From Mucilaginibacter sp. PAMC 26640 (GTDB lineage Bacteria > Bacteroidota > Bacteroidia > Sphingobacteriales > Sphingobacteriaceae), in contig CP014773.1 of assembly GCA_001596135.1 (NCBI GenBank), positions 992,001 through 1,056,000 on the forward strand: DNA of 64,000 nt. The letters are read 5' to 3'. A model generated the notes under the pieces. It was given only the letters and a program-made list of their open reading frames with translations. It had not been told where the DNA came from and ran no database searches. Below are positions 28,733 through 37,998 of this stretch, piece after piece. Both the position numbers and the translations under genes were made by a program. Position 1 is the first letter of the stretch. Every line of letters starts with the position of its first letter.

Positions 28733-29968
28733 CTACTTATTAACCCCAAAGGCTTCCCAGCCGGAGGCCGTTGCGCGTGTGCAGGTCATGGCCTGGGTGC
28801 CGTTTTCGCTGGAGATAAACTTCCCATTGTTGCCGCGGAAGGTAACCTTACCGTCAGCGGTTGGCACCCAGTCGAATTTCTCCCAATCGCTAATGACTGT
28901 ACGGTTACAGGTAATGGCTTGTGTACCATTTTCGCTGCTTACATATTTACCCTGGCTTTGCAGCGCAACTTTGCCTGCGCCCGCATCAACTACGGTAAAT
29001 TGTTCCCAGCCGCTGGCAGTTGCGCGGTTACAATTCATAGCTTGCGTACCGTTTTCACCGCTTACATATTGGTTATTGATGCCTTTTAACGTAACTGTTT
29101 GTCCAATTGGCGCGGTAGATCCTGTGCTGCCGGTAATATTATACACACGCACATAATCAACATACATGCTGGCCGGTAAAGCGCCGTTGTTAATGGTATT
29201 GCCCGGCAGATCGCCACCTACTGCCAAATTGAGAATAATATAAAACGGGAGCTGAAACTCTTCGGTGCCATTGATATTGTTCTGGATATTTCCCGTATTG
29301 AACAAAGTACCGTCTACGTACCATTTGATACTGTTTGCATCCCACTCAACAGCGTAAACATGGTAATCGGTTGCTGTAGCGGTAATGCTGTTGCCATAAT
29401 ACACGTGCCCATTGTTGTTCCAGTGCATCGTGCCTAAAATAGTGTTATTAGTATTTACCTGCTCCATAATATCAATTTCACCACATTGCGGCCAGCCTAC
29501 CTGGCCTATATTTTGACCCAGCATCCAAAAAGCAGGCCAGCTGCCCTGGAATGCCGGCAGCTTGATCCTCGCCTCGATTCGGCCATATTTGATACTGAAC
29601 TTTCCAGAAGTGTTGAGCTTGGCTGATGTATATGGCTGACCGCCGACGCTTTGGTTTTTAGCAGTGATGACCAGGTTACCGCCGGTTACAGCAGCATTAG
29701 CCGCCTGGTAGTATTCTTTCTCGTTATTCACGTTGGGATTACCATTATCAATGTTCCATTTGCTGCCGTCAACTCCGGTACCGTTAAACTCATCCGACCA
29801 TACCATGGTTAAAGCCCTCGGTGTGGTGGTGGCTACGGTGGTTTCCTTCGGCACAGCTACACTATCTGCACCTGTAGATTTTATATCCTTTTTGCAGGAA
29901 ACAGCCATGATACAGATCGCCAGGCCCATCCCGGCAATCCTCAAATAGGTAAATAATTGCTTTTTCAT
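28733..29968 (-). CDS. GH16 endo-beta-1,3-glucanase (laminarinase-like) with a C-terminal fascin-like trefoil
   Basis: The 411-residue lipoprotein (signal ending MAVSCKKD) has a GH16 domain at residues ~55-285. The catalytic signature is GEIDIMEQ with E164, D166 and E169, and the N-terminal strand reads [22 protein letters not shown]16 enzymes of this type cut beta-1,3-glucans by retaining hydrolysis. The C-terminal ~120 residues are three ~38-residue units ([45 protein letters not shown]). They form a fascin-like beta-trefoil, likely a glucan-binding module. The GH30 gene upstream in the same operon carries almost the same module. Confidence 0.93.
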
Positions 29969-30032: not shown

Positions 30033-31901
30033 TTACTGATTCACGCCAAAGGCTTCCCATCCCGATGCCGTTGCGCGTGTGCAGGTCATGGCCTGGGTGC
30101 CGTTTTCGCTGGAGATAAACTTCCCATTGTTGCCGCGCAGGGTCACTTTGCCGTCTGCTGTTGGCACCCAGTCGAATTTTTCCCAGTCGCCAAACGTAGT
30201 GCGGTTACAGGTTATCGCCTGTGTACCATTTTCGCTGCTTACATATTTCCCCTGGCTTTGCAACGCAACTTTGCCTGCGCCGGCGTCTATTACAGTGAAT
30301 TGTTCCCAGCCGCTGGCAGTTGCCCGGTTACAATTCATGGCTTGCGTACCGTTTTCGCTGCTTACATATTGATTATTAAATCCTTTTAGGGTGATAACCG
30401 AGCCGACAGGCGCGCCGGTACCAGAACTTCCGCCGGGCGTACCGGCCCATTTAAAGGTGACTACTGCACCGGCAGCAAGGCTGTACGTGAAAGATTCGGT
30501 ACCCCATTTCAGTTTAAAAGTAACGGTGCTGCTACCGTTGTTCAGGGCAATGACTACCTTGGTGCCGTCGCTGTTTTTGAAGGCCACGTTTTGGATAGAA
30601 CCAGAGAGGTTGGAGGCAATGCGCACCGCTCCCGGCCTGACAAATTTAGAAGCATGGGCAATAATGTAGTAGCCCACGTTGCGGGTAACCGAAGTTCCGC
30701 TTACGGTAATGGCTCCCAAACAAGTGCTGCAACCCCCATTGGTATGCGGATTGTAACCCGGATCTGCCGCCAGGTTCCACTCCAAAACATTACGGCTCCA
30801 GTTACGGGTGCCGCCGATGATCAAATTATTCATATGCCAGCCCAGGTCTCCCCCAAAATTACTTGGCGCACCAACCCATTGCTCGGTAAAGTAAACGTTC
30901 TTGTTTGGGTACGCATCATGCACGGTTGACAGTGCACTAATATCACCGGCATACAAATGGAAAGCGGATCCATCCACATAAGAACTTGCCTGGCCAACTA
31001 CGGTGGTGGCGTAGCTCGGCACATCGGCATTATGATCGTAAGCGATAATCTTGGTATTAAAGCCTGCGGCCCTTATTTGCGGCCCCAGGTTGTTATTAAT
31101 AAACGTAACCTGCTCGTTAGCCTGCATCACCATACTGGGGTTATTATAAGGGTTAAGCGGTTCATTTTGCGGAGTAATAGCATCTATCGTAATCCCCTGC
31201 GCTTTCATGGCTTGCAAGTATTTGACAAAGTAACGGGCGAAGGCATCATAATAAGCCGTATTTAAACTACCGCCGGTATAACCATTATTCCCGGTGGTGT
31301 TAACCTTCATCCAGGTTGGGGCTGTCCAGGGAGTGGCAATAATCTTGATAGATGGGTTAATGGCGAGAATCTTTTTCAATATGGGCAGAAAATCGGTACT
31401 CTCCTGCGCCAGGCTAAAATTGTTCATATTAACATCGCCGGCTGTTTGGTTGTAAGTAAAGTCAGACGAACTTAAGTCGGACGCACCGATACTGATGCGC
31501 AGGTAACTGATTCCAATTTGCCCGGCAGCAGTACCAAACAATTCGTTAAGCACATTAGCCTGGTTGCCGCCGAGGCCGTTTAACAGGCTTGCACTACCAC
31601 CTGTCAGGGTAAAACCAAAGCCGTCAATACCCTGATAGGTGACACCTTCATCAACAGTGATGGTAGTGGCATTGGTGCCTGCATCCGGCGCAAAATTCAC
31701 ACTACCCTGTGCCAGCAGGCTGGATTGATTGGAGGTGGTGAGCCAGGTACTCACCGGGCCGGTAGCGGCACGGGGCGTGGTACCTACCGGACCCGGGCCA
31801 CCTGCAATTTGCGACCGAACGTCTTTTTTGCACGCATTTACCAACAGGGCAAAGGTGAGCATCACCGAAACCAGCAGCTTAAATTTGTAATTGATTTTCA
31901 T
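30033..31901 (-). CDS. GH30 glycosidase (endo-beta-1,6-glucanase or glucosylceramidase-like) with fascin-like trefoil
   Basis: The 622-residue lipoprotein (signal ending LLVNACKKD) has a GH30 (beta/alpha)8 barrel. It opens with [16 protein letters not shown], has acid/base E247 in [11 protein letters not shown], and nucleophile E340 in [11 protein letters not shown] beta-sandwich follows and then a C-terminal trefoil closely matching that of the GH16 gene. Bacteroidota GH30_3 members act on beta-1,6-glucan (pustulan, fungal walls). The assignment to beta-1,6 is an inference from the GH16 partner. It starts the GH30-GH16 operon. Confidence 0.92.
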
Positions 31902-32563
31902 AATTGGTATTTGATTTGGTTAGTAATTGGTTTGCATAACTGTTTATAAATCAGTCGGTAAATGCTTTGTAATTATTAACTTTTAGTAAACAAGCCTGCT
32001 GGCAAACAAACTTGAAATTTGCAGCTTAGCGGTTTTTTCCAGGAAATAAGCAGATGCCGGTAAAATTGGTTAAGCAAATTTAAAGCAATTTAATGCTTAC
32101 AAACAAGTGATTAAATTTATAATTTACTGATAAATAAGCCATTATACATCAGTTGATACGGTTACTTCACACGCCCTAAACAGGCAAAAAGGTATCCAGT
32201 GCATTTAAAGCAGGTTTTGTAAAAAAGAAAAAATAGTTGCGATACGCTTACTTCACAATTTACTTTTTAAGCAATATAGCTTTGAGGAATAACGTATCAG
32301 GGTGCGGGAAATGCAGCAGCCAGTTAATTACAGGGTGCTACGAACATTGCTAAGGTTTAAGTGCTTTAGCATTCTTAATTTAATTAGATTTGAAGGATAG
32401 GCCGTTTTTAAAACATGCTTAAAGTAAGTTCTGATACATTGCCGTCATATCTTCGCGGCTTTGCGTGCCTAAGTCTAACCACCAAGCAGGATGCGGCAAA
32501 TTAATATGGTTATTTTCATTTGAGCTATCAATATTTTAAGCTTGCTATTTCAATTAGGGTTTT
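31902..32563. other. Gap of about 660 bases: GH30 leader and promoter plus a possible gene relic
   Basis: The GH30 promoter candidate is at 32075-32103. At 32419-32535 the minus strand keeps a 38-codon open frame ending HPAWWLDLG ... MYQNLL, which looks like the tail of a lost gene. Nothing else was recognised. Confidence 0.4.
32075..32103 (-). promoter_or_regulatory. Promoter candidate for the GH30-GH16 operon
   Basis: On the minus strand TTTG (32103-32100), 17 bases, then TAAATTTG (32082-32075). Start-to-ATG distance about 174 bases. This matches the Bacteroidota consensus. Confidence 0.5.
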
Positions 32564-34468
32564 TTATTCGGCCGGGGGTTCGATCACCAATTTACTCCAG
32601 CCTTTGCTACCTGCATTTTTAATTTCCTTCTTCCTGCTTTCCATTGCTTTTTTTATTCGGCTGCTGTAAGCCCAACAAGTACTTTGGCGAATGGATAGAA
32701 TTTCCGATAGCTTATGAGATGAGATTTTTCCCTTGGTGCTGTACATCAAAAAGATCATGTAAAAAGCTTTATTGATAGGGATGCGTGTGTTTTGCAAAAT
32801 GGTATAAGCAATAACCGATTCCTCATACCCGCACTTGGAACACCTTCGGCTGTAAGGCAAATGCCCGTTTCCGTAGCTGGTATTGCAACATTTTTTGCAC
32901 GCGTAACCGTGCTCCCATTTCAAATCGGACAGGAATTTAAAGCAGGTTTCCCGGTCGGGATAGATTTTGCTGAACTCCTCAAAATCCACTTCGGCCGACA
33001 TTACCCTGTCGTGTGTTACTTTCTCTATGTCATGATGTAGGGTAATGTTGTCACTTTCCAGCAGTACATTCATCCGGGAGATCTCTTCAGCTTGCTGCTG
33101 CAAAAGTTGGTTTACAGCCACCAACTCCTCGTTCTGCTGTTCAATGAGGGAGGATTTTTCGATCAGTTCCCCGGTGCGGGCTGCTACTTGATCTTCCAGG
33201 TTTCTATTCAGCTGATCTTTCAGCTCTTCGTTTTGCTGTAGTTGTTTAATCATCCGCAGCTGGGCTTCATCTTTCTCCCGTTTCAGCATCCGTACCCGGT
33301 CACCAATAGCGAAGGTGATAAAGAGCATCTCCATAATAAAACAAAAACTTAGACTATAAAAATTAATTGCTGTAACCGGGAACCATCCTAAATTTAACGC
33401 GATAAGTGATTTGATAATAAAACCCGCGAACAGGAAGCTATACCCGATTACAAAAAACCGCGCAGGCCGGTAGCCTTTATACAAAACATAGCAACCCGAC
33501 GCAAAAGCTACCGAAAGCGGAACAATCTCGATGATTTTGTAGCTGAACCAGTTTTTATCGATCAATAAGCACAAAACAAAAAATACGGTTCTCACTGTAA
33601 CAACTGCAATTAATATTTTATTGAATCGTGGTGCATTCTCTTTTAAGTTGAGCAGGCTCTGCGCAAAGAGCATTGCAAAGGTACTGGCCAAAAACAAAGA
33701 GATGCCGTAAGCGTAATGGTTCCATTGAGGCGCCATCTCCCATAGGTATTGGTAAGCAATACCATCCGTACACATTTCATACAAGCCAATGCTAAGGTTG
33801 TAAACAACGTAATATAGGTATTGCCGCTGGCGCATGGCAATAAACATCGTTAAATTATAAAGCCCGAATACAAGGATCATCCCGTAAAAAATACCGAAGA
33901 AAAAATATTCATCCAGCGCGTAGGCTATAAACCAGTTTACAGATTTAAGTACAATAATAACATTCGCAGACTGGTGGGAACGCAGGCGGAAATAATATAC
34001 GTTTTCGGTTTTAGGCCCATGGTCTAAATCAAGCGTAAAGTTTTTATGGCGGTATAAACGCTTCGAAAAAGGGCGATTGCTCCCTAGCAGCGTGGCTTTG
34101 TAAGTGTTGTCTTTATCTGGTTCGTATACGGCAATGCTATCAATGGTTTGGTCAAAAAACTCCAGCACCCAATTATTGCGGGTTGATAGGCGCTGATCTA
34201 ACTTGATGCGATACCAATAGGAAGCAGTGGCATCCGTTATTTGTGGAGTAGGTGCCGTATTTTTACTAAACTCACTGCCGTAGCTCTTTACTATATCATC
34301 AAAGGTAAGTTTGTTGCTGGTGTCTTTAAACCACTCCAGCTCGCCGTATCTGAATACATGCTGTTTGGCGGAATCCACTACAGGCACGATATTTTGAGCG
34401 CTGCCACTCATCACTGCGCCGCTCAACAAAATGAAAAGGCATATAATCCGGCAATAAAATTTAAGCAT
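32564..34468 (-). CDS. 7TM-DISM receptor fused to an IS1595-transposase-like zinc ribbon and HTH
   Basis: The 634-residue protein has a signal peptide (cleavage near SGSAQ), a periplasmic DISMED2-like beta domain (residues ~30-180), seven membrane segments (~185-390), and a coiled coil (~395-480). The C-terminal domain from ~487 is unlike the usual kinase. It holds C524-x2-C527 and C543-x2-C546 followed by VIAYTILQNTRIPINKAFYM, then a helix-turn-helix-like KISSHKLSEILSIRQSTCWA. This is the N-terminal zinc ribbon plus helical part of IS1595-type transposases, without the DDE domain. It is likely a membrane-anchored sensor that binds DNA or protein. It lies between GH30 and GH5 genes, so it may sense beta-glucan. 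Confidence 0.85.
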   Translation of the reverse strand: MLKFYCRIICLFILLSGAVMSGSAQNIVPVVDSAKQHVFRYGELEWFKDTSNKLTFDDIVKSYGSEFSKNTAPTPQITDATASYWYRIKLDQRLSTRNNWVLEFFDQTIDSIAVYEPDKDNTYKATLLGSNRPFSKRLYRHKNFTLDLDHGPKTENVYYFRLRSHQSANVIIVLKSVNWFIAYALDEYFFFGIFYGMILVFGLYNLTMFIAMRQRQYLYYVVYNLSIGLYEMCTDGIAYQYLWEMAPQWNHYAYGISLFLASTFAMLFAQSLLNLKENAPRFNKILIAVVTVRTVFFVLCLLIDKNWFSYKIIEIVPLSVAFASGCYVLYKGYRPARFFVIGYSFLFAGFIIKSLIALNLGWFPVTAINFYSLSFCFIMEMLFITFAIGDRVRMLKREKDEAQLRMIKQLQQNEELKDQLNRNLEDQVAARTGELIEKSSLIEQQNEELVAVNQLLQQQAEEISRMNVLLESDNITLHHDIEKVTHDRVMSAEVDFEEFSKIYPDRETCFKFLSDLKWEHGYACKKCCNTSYGNGHLPYSRRCSKCGYEESVIAYTILQNTRIPINKAFYMIFLMYSTKGKISSHKLSEILSIRQSTCWAYSSRIKKAMESRKKEIKNAGSKGWSKLVIEPPAE

Positions 34469-34552: not shown

Positions 34553-35785
34553 TTAATTACCAGGCACTTTTAAACCCAGTGCCTTGATATAACCCTTCTG
34601 AGGGAAGCAATTGGCAAATTTACAGTTCTCTAAAAACCCGTAAAGTGCTGCCTTTATTTTTGCCCTGTCGGTAGGTGCTGCCTTTCGGATATCTTCAAAA
34701 CTGCCGCGATCTTTTTCGGTATAGTCAATCACTTCCTGGTAGCCATCCGGCACGTTGAAACTCATAACTCCTTTATCATTATCCAGCTTTTTATAGGGCC
34801 AGTAATGCCAGCCTATATTATTCTTTTCGCATACCACCCGGAAATCATGGACCCATAGGTCGGTGTTCTCACCCGTTTCGCCTACGTAGATCGGTACGTT
34901 ATATTTGTCACGAAAATCAATATAATCCTGGATAACTTGCTGAGTGGGATCCGTCCAGTACTTGTGGAAAGTATAAACCAGCTTGCTGTCGAACGGCTTG
35001 CCAAACGGCTTAAAGTTGCTGTCCCATTGCGCACCACCCAGGAAAAGGAGGTGATTTTTATCTACCAGGCGGATAGCGGCGGTGATCTCTTTATAAGTTG
35101 GTTCCAGTTGCGGGTTAATCTCATCCACATTAAAATAATGAGCAATGGGCTCGTTCAGCAGATCGTAGCCTAAAATAATACCTTCGTTTTTGTAATGGTC
35201 AGCAATGCGTTTCCAGATGTCGGCGGTTTGCTTGCGGTTTGCAGGGCTGGTAAACAAGAATGGGTAGCCGTCGCCATCATCGATATTATCCCCCGTTTGT
35301 CCGCCGGGAGCGCAATGCATATCCAGTAATACATACAGGTTTTCCTGCTTGCACCAGCCAATTACCCTGTCCAGCAGTTCGAAGCCACGGTTAGGATTGT
35401 TTTGGCCCATATAACTCTCGCTGGTAAAAAGCTTATAATTAAACGGTATGCGGATGGAGTTAGCCCCGGTAGCCTTCAGAAACCTGATATCACCCTGGGT
35501 AATATAGGTATCCTGGAACTTTTTCCAGAACAGTTTAGTTTCTTCCGGGCCGATCAACTCGGTAAATGCCTGGTTAATGAGCCTTTGCGAGTTTACTTTT
35601 TTAAACTTAAACATATAGCCTTCCGGCACCAGCCAGTTACCCAGGTTTGTACCACGGATTAAAAAAGGTTTACCATTGCTACCGATGATCTCTTTACCCC
35701 TAACAGAAATGAATTTTGCGGTTTGGGCCGATAGATTACAGTCGCCGCCAAAAAGCACCGCTAAAAGGATAAGTAATTTTTTCAT
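34553..35785 (-). CDS. GH5 glycoside hydrolase (cellulase/exo-glucanase-like)
   Basis: I place the start at 35785 (MKKLLILLAVLFGGDCNLSAQ), which gives a signal peptide. The open frame extends 44 codons further back, but with non-signal sequence. The mature ~390 residues form a GH5 barrel. The acid/base Glu is in GYDLLNEPIAHY, the nucleophile Glu in VPIYVGETGENT, and FLIRGTNLGNWLVPEG is the usual GH5 N-terminal stretch. This is closest to GH5 exo-beta-1,3-glucanase/cellulase types. It extends the beta-glucan set with GH16 and GH30. It is divergent from modA. Confidence 0.92.
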   Translation of the reverse strand: MKKLLILLAVLFGGDCNLSAQTAKFISVRGKEIIGSNGKPFLIRGTNLGNWLVPEGYMFKFKKVNSQRLINQAFTELIGPEETKLFWKKFQDTYITQGDIRFLKATGANSIRIPFNYKLFTSESYMGQNNPNRGFELLDRVIGWCKQENLYVLLDMHCAPGGQTGDNIDDGDGYPFLFTSPANRKQTADIWKRIADHYKNEGIILGYDLLNEPIAHYFNVDEINPQLEPTYKEITAAIRLVDKNHLLFLGGAQWDSNFKPFGKPFDSKLVYTFHKYWTDPTQQVIQDYIDFRDKYNVPIYVGETGENTDLWVHDFRVVCEKNNIGWHYWPYKKLDNDKGVMSFNVPDGYQEVIDYTEKDRGSFEDIRKAAPTDRAKIKAALYGFLENCKFANCFPQKGYIKALGLKVPGN

Positions 35786-35820
35786 CACAGGAATTGGTTT
35801 ATATTGGTTTATAAGCAAAA

Positions 35821-35828
35821 CAAATGTA
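35821..35828 (-). promoter_or_regulatory. -7 box candidate for the GH5 gene
   Basis: TACATTTG on the minus strand, an exact TAnnTTTG match, 36 bases before the chosen start. It lies back-to-back with the modA -7 box at 35857. Confidence 0.4.
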
Positions 35829-35856
35829 ACAGATTTCTGTCGGGATATTTGTGCGT

Positions 35857-35864
35857 TATATTTG
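35857..35864 (+). promoter_or_regulatory. -7 box candidate for modABC
   Basis: TATATTTG, an exact TAnnTTTG match, 52 bases before the modA ATG. No clear -33 box was seen. Confidence 0.45.
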
Positions 35865-35915
35865 CAAACAGGCCCATATACACGTATTTTGTCTGCATAG
35901 GTTACGCAATACAAC

Positions 35916-36701
35916 ATGAAGGAGTTTCAACAAACCACTTGCACCCGCAGATGTGGGTACAGAATAATCGCAGTGATGATGCTGTTGGTATGCAGTGCCG
36001 GTTTAGCCCATGCACAAAATTTGCGGATAGCTATTGCGGCCAATCTGCAGCCGGTAATGAAAGTTTTACAAAAAGACTTTAAGCAGCGCAGCGGCCTAAA
36101 TATAGATGCCATTTCGGGCCCATCGGGTAATTTGACTACACAAATAAAAAACGGGGCACCCTTTGATGTTTTTTTATCTGCCGATACCGGATTCCCCGAG
36201 GAGCTTTTCAAAAGCGGTTTTGCAGTGAACAAACCTGTGGTATATGCACAGGGTATTTTGATATTGTGCAGCAGGCACAAACTTGGGGCCGAAAGCTGGA
36301 AAACGACACTGCTAAATAAAAACGTCAGCCGGCTGGCAATTGGCAACCCGGCAATAGCACCCTATGGCAAAGCCGCAAAAGAAGTGCTGACCCATGAAGG
36401 GATTTACAAGCAGCTTAAACCTAAACTAGTTTTTGGTGAAAGCATTACGCAGGTAAATACCTACATAGCAACGGATGCGGTAGAGGCAGGATTTACGTCC
36501 CTATCTTTTTATAAAGAAAACAGCAGCAGGATGACGTTGTTCAGCTGGCCAATTGATCCTGCAACTTACTCCCCCATACTGCAGGGTATGGTGTTGCTTA
36601 AACATGCCAAAAACAACGCCGACGCCAAAAAATTCTACGATTATATCCTGAGTCCACCGGCCAGAAAGATCTTTGCACAGTATGGTTATCACCTACAATA
36701 A
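35916..36701 (+). CDS. modA: Molybdate ABC transporter substrate-binding protein
   Basis: The 261-residue periplasmic protein has a signal region (cleavage near LAHAQ) and the ModA signature. The N-terminal strand is NLRIAIAANLQPVMKVLQ, the oxyanion-binding loop is ISGPSGNLTTQIKNGAPFDV, and FLSADTGFPEEL follows. The central GNPAIAPYGKAAKEVL and the hinge strands are intact. It binds molybdate or tungstate for ModBC. It is first in a modABC operon with modB 11 bases later. No Mo-cofactor genes are in the window. Confidence 0.95.
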   Translation: MKEFQQTTCTRRCGYRIIAVMMLLVCSAGLAHAQNLRIAIAANLQPVMKVLQKDFKQRSGLNIDAISGPSGNLTTQIKNGAPFDVFLSADTGFPEELFKSGFAVNKPVVYAQGILILCSRHKLGAESWKTTLLNKNVSRLAIGNPAIAPYGKAAKEVLTHEGIYKQLKPKLVFGESITQVNTYIATDAVEAGFTSLSFYKENSSRMTLFSWPIDPATYSPILQGMVLLKHAKNNADAKKFYDYILSPPARKIFAQYGYHLQ

Positions 36702-36712
36702 ACAGCTATAGA

Positions 36713-37384
36713 ATGGATCTTACACCAATATGGCTCACGCTAAAACTAGCAAGCATTACCACCTTACTGCTGCTGGTACTGGGATTGCCCGTGGCCTGGT
36801 GGCTCTCCGGGAGGCGGTCGTTTATCAAGATCATCATTGAGGCCTTTATTACTATGCCACTGGTTTTACCCCCATCGGTGCTGGGCTTTTATTTGTTGCT
36901 GGCTTTTAGTCCGCAGCGTGGGGTGGGTAAATGGCTACACGATAACTTTAACCTGCAATTTGTATTTTCTTTCGAGGGGTTGGTGCTGGCCTCGGTCATT
37001 TATAGTATGCCGTTTATGATCAGTCCGGTAAAATCGGCGTTTCAGCAACTGCCAGCATCCCTGGCGCAAGCATCCGCCACGCTGGGAAAAACAAAGTGGC
37101 AAACTTTAAGATGGGTGCTGCTGCCCAACATCAAACCATCGTTACTAACGGCTACCGTTTTAACTTTTGCGCACACCCTGGGCGAGTTCGGCGTAGTGCT
37201 GATGATCGGCGGCAATATCCCGGGCATTACCCGGGTAGCCTCTATCGCCGTGTACGATTCGGTAGAACAGATGGATTACACCTCGGCCAATAACTATTCG
37301 CTCATCCTGTTTGCCATTACTTTTGTGCTGGTCACCGGGGTGTTCATCTACAATAAATACCAGGTAAAAACCCCCTTAGTATGA
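36713..37384 (+). CDS. modB: Molybdate ABC transporter permease
   Basis: The 223-residue membrane protein has about five to six membrane segments and the ABC EAA-like loop in ASATLGKTKWQTLRWVLLPN. It ends GNIPGITRVASIAVYD and a final span, typical of ModB. It forms the channel with ModC. Its stop overlaps the start of modC by four bases. Confidence 0.94.
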   Translation: MDLTPIWLTLKLASITTLLLLVLGLPVAWWLSGRRSFIKIIIEAFITMPLVLPPSVLGFYLLLAFSPQRGVGKWLHDNFNLQFVFSFEGLVLASVIYSMPFMISPVKSAFQQLPASLAQASATLGKTKWQTLRWVLLPNIKPSLLTATVLTFAHTLGEFGVVLMIGGNIPGITRVASIAVYDSVEQMDYTSANNYSLILFAITFVLVTGVFIYNKYQVKTPLV

Positions 37385-37998
37385 TCCGCATCCATATCGA
37401 AAAAAAGCTCAGGGCATACCAGGGGGTACAGGTGCTCAAGATCCGGAAGGAGATGGCCGCCGGCAGTATTACCCGCGTTACCGGCCCCTCGGGTGCGGGC
37501 AAAACCACGTTGCTTAAAATGATAGCCGGACTCATAACACCAGATGCCGGACAGATCACGATCAACCAAACCGTTTGGTTTGATGCCGCTCAACAGATCA
37601 ACCTGCCTACGCGCTTACGGATGCCCGGTTTTGTTTTCCAGGACTATGCGCTGTTTCCCAACATGACGGTGCAGCAGCATTTGGCCTACGCAACCACCGA
37701 TACCGCATGGATCAACCGTTTACTCGCTATCGGGCAGCTGGAAACCTTTGCAGCTCATAAACCCGAACACCTTTCCGGCGGCCAACAACAGCGACTGGCT
37801 ATTTTGCGCGCACTGGCCATTAAACCGCAATTGCTGCTGATGGACGAGCCCTTTTCCGCGCTGGATGTGAAGATGAAATCGGCGTTGATTGCTGATTTGC
37901 TCACCCTTTTTACAGAATTAAAGGCCACCGTACTCATCGTGAGCCATAACCCGCAGGAGCTGGATGGCATTTGCAATGACGAATTAGTGCTGGACTAA
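37381..37998 (+). CDS. modC: Molybdate ABC transporter ATP-binding protein (short form)
   Basis: The 205-residue ATPase has Walker A GPSGAGKTT, the signature LSGGQQQRLAIL, Walker B LLLMDEPFSALD and a switch His in VSHNPQEL. The C-terminal TOBE/MOP domain of full-length ModC (~350 residues) is missing, so it is a short version as in many Bacteroidota. The remaining operon is intact, so it should be functional with ModB. Confidence 0.92.
   Translation: MIRIHIEKKLRAYQGVQVLKIRKEMAAGSITRVTGPSGAGKTTLLKMIAGLITPDAGQITINQTVWFDAAQQINLPTRLRMPGFVFQDYALFPNMTVQQHLAYATTDTAWINRLLAIGQLETFAAHKPEHLSGGQQQRLAILRALAIKPQLLLMDEPFSALDVKMKSALIADLLTLFTELKATVLIVSHNPQELDGICNDELVLD

Follow-up and report, generated by a model that had tools for sequence, protein, structure and literature searches.

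Three Bacteroidota-specific types of regulator have been named for polysaccharide utilization loci (PULs): SusR-like proteins, hybrid two-component systems (HTCS) and extracytoplasmic function (ECF) sigma/anti-sigma pairs (PMC3878776). Transmembrane one-component regulators (TTRs) are a recognised class of their own (PMC10269533), and 7TMR-DISM sensors joined to a ChiS-type DNA-binding domain have been published from proteobacterial genomes (PMC8092284). In this work we analysed a stretch of 64,000 nt (the window) from Mucilaginibacter sp. PAMC 26640 (GenBank assembly GCA_001596135.1, contig CP014773.1, forward-strand positions 992,001 to 1,056,000), in which a minus-strand gene encodes a receptor that begins as a 7TMR-DISM sensor and ends in a zinc ribbon and helix-turn-helix (HTH) like those at the head of IS1595 transposases. 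From comparison of sequences we hold it to be highly probable that this receptor is a transmembrane one-component PUL transcription regulator with a domesticated IS1595 head and a candidate operator, and the best reading of it is that it belongs to a widespread family of such regulators that has had no name so far. Because the DNA signal that accompanies the receptor sits before glucan- and sugar-digesting genes, the receptor probably represents a kind of switch for sugar-digestion genes that has not been described before.

The fusion of a 7TM-DISM sensor with an IS1595-like zinc ribbon and HTH had been proposed in an earlier note on this DNA, and Pfam and NCBIfam matches and an AlphaFold2 model all bore it out (Table 1). 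The NCBIfam model of IS1595 transposases, NF033547, matched the tail at residues 560-617 (E 5e-8); the score of 33 bits is under the 75-bit cut-off, which applies to whole transposases. The zinc ribbon PF12760 was weak on the window protein alone (E 0.2, below cut-off) and clear across homologues: in a diversity-thinned set of 60 of the 92 distinct sequences described below, all 60 tails matched NF033547 and 53 matched PF12760 at E ≤0.001, the window's own tail being among the seven without a PF12760 match. The four cysteines were correctly numbered in the earlier note (C524/C527 and C543/C546) and are kept in 92/92 sequences. The note had also reported the absence of a DDE domain, and PF12762 was indeed not found in the receptor by Pfam; the transposase relative L203 does have it. 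No histidine kinase, receiver or AraC domain was detected by Pfam on the receptor at E up to 10, and the plus strand of the gene was stop-rich in the single frame tried. AlphaFold2 monomers predicted from homologue alignments had a mean pLDDT (per-residue model confidence) of 88.6 for the tail alone and 82.8 for the whole protein, and gave in order a signal helix, the ectodomain, the transmembrane (TM) helices, a single helix at about residues 367-489, zinc-ribbon-like strands and a helical HTH bundle; the join of helix to tail was weakly modelled (pLDDT <50 at residues 469-489). As to the coiled coil that the note had placed between the 7TM domain and the tail, the long helix is there in the model, and a coiled coil is probable, judging from that modelled helix.

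Homologues of the receptor are widespread. One contig scan returned 79 distinct loci, mostly with whole-query coverage, in Mucilaginibacter, Pedobacter, Olivibacter, Solitalea, Chryseolinea and other Cytophagales. The tail was matched in 29 of 60 relatives (the window genome counted), and 23 of the 60 had a receptor-length frame. An even draw of 395 Bacteroidota genomes gave 46 that matched the tail profile and 11 with receptor-length frames, all 11 of which also matched the profile of the sensor part. Altogether 103 homologues (92 distinct, window included) were aligned along their length, sequences stopping before query residue 600 (e.g., L114) being left out. In the 92-sequence alignment, mean conservation was higher in the tail (0.82) than in the 7TM domain (0.71), the helix (0.70) and the ectodomain (0.57). 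The nonsynonymous distance (dN) to the window in eight comparisons was 0.02-0.12 for the tail and 0.27-0.40 for the ectodomain; the synonymous distance (dS) was mostly saturated and could be computed in few region comparisons, and for this reason dN is quoted and not dN/dS. A homology to transposases is also what an IS1595 insertion, a misassembly, a chance fusion or a decaying transposase would leave behind. We give such an artefact practically no weight, as it is already refuted by the orthologues: full-length homologues in many species carry the in-frame join at the same place, which rules out misassembly or chance fusion, and the low tail dN with saturated dS and the missing DDE domain speak against it too. 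The earlier note had named an intact transposase within a misassembled gene as the finding that would overturn it; full-length orthologues in many separately sequenced species contradict this, and since 92 distinct sequences align along their length the gene is no misassembly. One homologue, L087, is filed as Beijerinckiaceae (Pseudomonadota), yet it is a typical Bacteroidota receptor with SusC/SusD; its assembly is probably mis-binned.

From one end to the other, the tail can be aligned with IS1595 transposase heads, and it ends near the start of the transposases' DDE domain. We built a tree of 77 heads (125 columns), for which 43 of the 70 receptor tails were kept after thinning; the columns are few and the fine detail is unsure. 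All 43 receptor tails lay on one side of a branch recovered in 92% of 200 bootstraps. Support was 90/0 for the receptor-tail branch and 99/93 for the branch that adds L151, a stand-alone head of 151 aa. The nearest neighbours of the receptor tails were transposase-like proteins of genome G218, together with the long-branched L033 of unsure place, and the next was L158, a transposase of the window's own genus. L203, which has a DDE domain and a head scoring about like the G218 heads, was found later and stands outside the tree. Because the receptor tails group inside the IS1595 transposases, a single capture from an IS1595 subgroup would be the simplest reading, and the family models, the end-to-end alignment and the tree all agree with the earlier proposal of a domesticated IS1595 head on a receptor. 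That the protein is still a transposase was ruled out by the lack of a DDE domain.

Related heads were also seen outside receptors. Five genomes encode stand-alone proteins of ∼154-203 aa with an IS1595 zinc ribbon and HTH and no DDE domain (L152-L156; family f26, genus g30), and as these branch apart from the receptor tails they are probably a separate domestication. Genome G218 has ten IS1595-like proteins of 306-339 aa; visual inspection of seven of them (L124 and L145-L150) suggests that the usual VDE and second-D motifs are degenerate, and L145, the one scanned, had PF12762 below cut-off. These ten are possibly a dead or repurposed expansion. The stand-alone heads L151 (1197-1649, 151 aa) and L204 (1584-2069, 162 aa) resemble the receptor tail as far as its C-terminal W motif and are perhaps soluble receptor derivatives.

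Next, the DNA between the receptor and the next gene was compared across loci. Word-pair counts gave one dominant element, AAGCGTATCA. The word GCGTATCA occurred in 51 of 87 regions against a shuffled expectation of 0.5 (the floor of the count), and the AAGCGTATCA element, within one mismatch and on the coding strand of the target, was present in 60/89 gaps: 24/24 before genes of glycoside hydrolase (GH) family GH30, 28/34 before SusC and 8/31 before other genes. In the same 89 gaps the element was found on the other strand in 5, the reversed motif in none, and the shuffled mean was 1.04; these shuffles, as those for the TAnnTTTG counts below, kept base composition only. Two or more copies stood as a direct repeat in 46 gaps, and in the 44 two-site gaps the spacing was 77-94 bp. 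The extended form TGYGAnnnAASCGTATCR is matched perfectly at exactly two places in the 5.6 Mb genome of the window, both of them in the gap between receptor and GH30. The two operator candidates in Table 1 were scored with a weight matrix built from 105 sites, the window excluded, and the third-best score in the 64 kb was 11.6 bits. Two further sites, each with one mismatch, lie elsewhere in the genome of the window (L200, L201) and are not explained.

We then examined whether the element goes with the target genes and with the receptor. The element stayed 5' of GH30 despite an inserted gene in L036, L037, L039, L044, L045, and L048. The receptor of G019 stands by itself, and GH30-GH16 on a different contig is preceded by two sites; G025 and G502 also have two sites ahead of a GH30-GH16-GH16 cluster, >1 Mb away from the receptor. 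Because it stays with such separated targets, the element belongs to the target and not to the receptor 3' end. The extended site was found in 14/23 receptor-positive vs. 0/37 receptor-negative relatives (P 5e-8; P values here ignore relatedness), and its reversed control pattern gave 2 matches in the 60 genomes. There were 24 extended sites, 16 adjoining the receptor and 8 elsewhere; three of the latter precede GH30 (G019, G025), four precede a GH18-type gene (L195, L196, L198, L199; L196 was Pfam-checked and has a DUF7910 match) and one is in G024. The GH18-type genes, and alginate-lyase-family genes at L206 and L209, are probable further targets. The site in G024 (L197, G024:C36:289000-303000) is a perfect match away from any scored glycan gene and is unexplained. 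Across 149 genomes of the genus, a site pair was present in 64/92 receptor-positive and 8/57 receptor-negative genomes (P 1e-11), with G155, G491 and G495, whose only tail match is of transposase length, counted as receptor-negative; a narrower count of pairs 85-91 bp apart, a spacing chosen after the data were seen, gave 55/92 vs. 1/57. The motif was defined at receptor loci, many of them in the species searched, which in part predetermines that it is associated with the receptor. Independent evidence comes from the loci with an inserted gene, from sites lying away from the receptor and from GH30 loci of receptor-less genomes. The last of these were 20 hand-picked loci from 19 genomes judged receptor-less by a profile search scoring ≤10 candidates per genome. 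They held six matches to the AASCGTATYR core, all inside open reading frames (ORFs), with no intergenic copy, and no extended site within one mismatch. Ten more GH30 loci, originally fetched for another purpose (nine receptor-less and one of the f15 lineage, G250), had a single match to the core, again within an ORF, and lacked the extended site. At the control locus L216, a propeller/Y_Y_Y/LuxR regulator is encoded divergently from SusC.

In the window the genes come in the order GH5, receptor, GH30, GH16, each of them minus-strand, with 662 bp between receptor and GH30. To survey the neighbourhoods, receptors >97% identical were merged (102 to 98) and four loci with <2.5 kb downstream were left out, giving 94 non-redundant loci; five neighbour families were scored by hidden Markov models (HMMs) built from the same loci, other glycan genes being counted as unknown. 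SusC or SusD was among the next three same-strand genes downstream in 46 loci, GH30, GH16 or GH5 was among those three genes in 31, and such GH genes were found solely upstream (within three genes) in 14. SusC/D or GH30/16/5 thus lay within three genes of the receptor in 91/94 loci. Control of the nearby glucanases, as the earlier note had suggested, is supported by this gene order and by the conserved operator-like element. Pfam searches on representatives identified the neighbours as TonB-dependent SusC, SusD_RagB, GH30, GH16, GH5, GH3, GH2 and PF10091 "Glycoamylase". Because of these identities we take the glycan to be probably a beta-glucan for the window's group; elsewhere other glycans may be concerned. 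The GH16 and GH30 proteins of the window share a near-identical C-terminal DUF7910/fascin-like domain, which is also present on GH18 proteins behind the element (L196).

Several observations weigh against a regulator acting through this element. There was no element within one mismatch in 29/89 gaps; at six of these loci it is found farther along, before GH30. Most members of the Mucilaginibacter subgroup in which the GH genes precede the receptor had no element in the available DNA, and five loci of the f15 lineage had no site within one mismatch. Site pairs do occur in receptor-negative genomes, as counted above, and the reversed control pair pattern matched 10/149 genomes, so some site pairs are due to chance. 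Three of the 94 loci (L049, L056, and L057) had no scored neighbours; L057, by its identical best identity, appears to be the same locus as L012 of G019, whose target is elsewhere, and L049 and L056 remain without explanation. Fold searches with the tail returned generic HTH matches only: the PDB search gave no match at E <0.001, and VIA-align 2 a best Z of 5.5 with a root-mean-square deviation (rmsd) of 3.6 over 64 residues. With regard to fold novelty this null is uninformative; no IS1595 structure was among the matches listed.

The gaps that lack the element, together with a link between tail and element drawn by comparison, would also fit an element AAGCGTATCA that serves another, unlinked regulator, the tail doing something else such as binding protein or RNA. 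PULs can carry several regulators, and in L165 an HTCS-type gene and a paralogous receptor are arranged divergently. We think this explanation quite unlikely: element and receptor co-occur across genomes, receptor-less GH30 loci are without the element, and the nearest relatives of the tail are heads of DNA-binding transposases. Moreover, the site is missing in the f15 lineage, in which the recognition helix differs (the tail of L028 is 34% identical to that of the window), and altered in the f29 lineage (three loci), in which the helix is slightly changed and the best site is AAG(C/T)GTATA(A/G). Site loss at the five f15 loci could be due to changed specificity. A word search in the two lineages gave nothing firm, the loci being too few (5 and 3).

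The Bacteroidota -7 consensus is TAnnTTTG. Within 120 bp past the proximal site it was found in 33/60 loci vs. 5.1 after shuffling; 22 matches were at 70-71 bp, 7 at 56-58 bp, and 5 elsewhere. The ∼71 bp spacing is that of the window and most Mucilaginibacter, and the 56-58 bp spacing mostly that of Cytophagales. A -7 box close behind the operator had been considered and was dropped on account of these distances. The palindrome-like words CAAACGTTTG or CGAAAACGTT occur near the same promoters in the receptor-target gaps of L160, L162, L168, L179, and L180; they are reminiscent of LacI-family sites. The sign of control cannot be read from sequence, and a DNA-binding receptor might be a repressor that is released by the signal. 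This is unlikely in our estimate, since in the 29 loci with TAnnTTTG at 56-58 or 70-71 bp the proximal site is upstream of the box and not across it, and the membrane regulator SusR is an activator (PMC3878776). The receptor would probably act as an activator as well.

The coordinates of the receptor, its domains, the candidate control elements and the neighbouring genes are collected in Table 1.

Table 1. Features of the receptor locus, in positions of the 64,000-nt window.
Feature	Position	Strand	Basis
Receptor gene, 634 aa: 7TMR-DISM sensor, long helix and IS1595-type zinc ribbon/HTH tail	32564..34468	-	
7TMR-DISMED2 extracytoplasmic domain, residues 43-174	33947..34342	-	Pfam PF07696, E 3e-28, over cut-off
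7TMR-DISM_7TM seven-transmembrane domain, residues 187-391	33296..33910	-	Pfam PF07695, E 4e-45, over cut-off
Long cytoplasmic helix, probable signalling coiled coil, residues 392-489	33002..33295	-	AlphaFold2 model
IS1595-type zinc ribbon, residues 506-548 (C524, C527, C543, C546)	32825..32953	-	Pfam on homologues, alignment, model
IS1595-type HTH, residues 560-617	32618..32791	-	NCBIfam NF033547, AlphaFold2 model
Distal operator candidate, TGTGAAGTAAGCGTATCG	32240..32257	-	Weight matrix, 23.1 bits, best in window
Proximal operator candidate, TGTGAAGTAACCGTATCA, 86 bp from distal	32154..32171	-	Weight matrix, 21.1 bits, second in window
-7-like box TAnnTTTG, TAAATTTG, 71 bp past proximal operator	32075..32082	-	
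GH30 glycoside hydrolase with C-terminal DUF7910 match, probable target	30033..31901	-	Pfam
GH16 glycoside hydrolase, C-terminal domain as in GH30, probable target operon	28733..29968	-	Pfam
GH5 glycoside hydrolase directly upstream of receptor	34553..35917	-	Pfam; neighbour cluster 5 in 29/80 loci

Divergent from the GH5 gene, the window carries molybdate ABC transporter-like genes at 35916-37998 (modABC, by eye), and three modABC-like neighbour clusters recur in 30-31 of 80 loci.

We propose the following mechanism. The periplasmic DISMED2 and 7TM domains would probably sense a sugar released from beta-glucan, and the signal would travel down the long helix seen in the model. The zinc ribbon and HTH, IS1595-derived by homology, would bind two direct repeats TGYGAnnnAAGCGTATCA, 77-94 bp apart; these sites, recognised by comparative genomics, lie upstream of GH30/GH16, SusC/SusD, and related genes. 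The bound receptor would then recruit RNA polymerase to a promoter whose -7 box is ∼71 or 56-58 bp past the proximal site. More speculatively, two membrane-held receptor dimers on both sites might loop the intervening DNA. Going further, we offer as a tentative and rather doubtful idea that a new class of Bacteroidota glycan regulator arose once, when an IS1595 transposase was left without its catalytic domain and its head, which recognises DNA ends, was joined to a 7TM sensor, that its operator came from a transposon terminal repeat, and that the receptor pairs distant sites at the membrane in a transposase-like manner to activate genes. The putative ends of the related insertion sequence (IS) copies L158, L202, and L203, picked by eye, read AATA(A)GGCG(C/T)TT, and their core CG(C/T)TT is also found in TGATACGCTT of the operator; the overlap is short, was noticed by eye and serves as a lead only. 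When repeats were searched for automatically, a clear inverted repeat was seen in L202 and none in L203. The change from transposon end to operator would be directly studiable, because a DDE-bearing related transposase is found in the same genus (L203, G495), and the predicted operator is directly testable.

Among the known systems, 7TMR-DISM receptors (PF07695/PF07696) share the ectodomain and the 7TM domain with our receptor, both over cut-off, and differ in their output, which is a kinase or cyclase where the receptor has a zinc ribbon/HTH; the window's genome has only one other PF07695 match, a histidine kinase that carries both of these sensor domains. The IS1595 transposases (NF033547, PF12760/PF12762) have the four-cysteine zinc ribbon and the HTH in common with the receptor tail and carry a DDE domain, whereas the receptor has none and ends near where the DDE domain begins. 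The receptor is apparently an instance from bacteria in which a membrane receptor took a transposase head as its output. ChiS is known for its control of chitin utilization. Proteins of the ChiS DNA-binding domain family combine, like the receptor, 7TMR-DISM with a C-terminal DNA-binding domain; that domain, reported from proteobacterial genomes (PMC8092284), is to judge by its name a different one from the receptor's. TTRs resemble the receptor, which by homology and model has TM segments and a DNA-binding-type domain in one chain and in which no kinase or receiver domain was found; the main text of the TTR paper makes no mention of "transposase", 7TMR, or DISM (PMC10269533). The earlier note knew of no described one-component system of this kind. 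Given the published TTRs and 7TMR-DISM proteins with a ChiS-type domain this is too broad and needs to be limited to the IS1595-tailed kind: our searches of a literature with few subscription papers turned up no IS1595-tailed receptor, no operator of such a receptor and no such PUL regulator.

Compared with the PUL regulators, HTCS also stand beside SusC/SusD with direct-repeat sites; their kinase, receiver, and AraC domains are absent from the receptor, and their repeats are on average 21 bp apart (PMC3878776). SusR-like proteins are closer in that a membrane regulator stands beside SusC/SusD with direct repeats whose centres are 67 or 77 bp apart (PMC3878776), vs. 77-94 bp here, and because of these long-spaced direct repeats the present operator is organised like that of SusR. 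The receptor might then be a SusR-type regulator under another name, the more so as its position before SusC-SusD-GH30 is that of regulator-like genes in L232 and L234. This we judge to be very improbable. Three proteins picked by synteny (L232-L234; 552-584 aa, before SusC-SusD), which length and synteny suggest to be SusR relatives, are DUF6377 proteins; two of the three have a sub-threshold TPR match, and by eye one stretch looks like a TM segment. They are unlike the receptor in both sensor and DNA-binding domain; neither a zinc ribbon nor 7TMR-DISM was found in them by Pfam, and with the tail profile they score at noise level. Identity with SusR was thus unsupported by these three proteins. 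If a domesticated IS1595 head on a 7TMR-DISM sensor does control these genes, it would be a regulator at work in Bacteroidota that, by the nature of its target genes, probably attack fungal-type beta-glucans and other polysaccharides, and it would add another type to the three Bacteroidota-specific PUL regulators named so far (PMC3878776).

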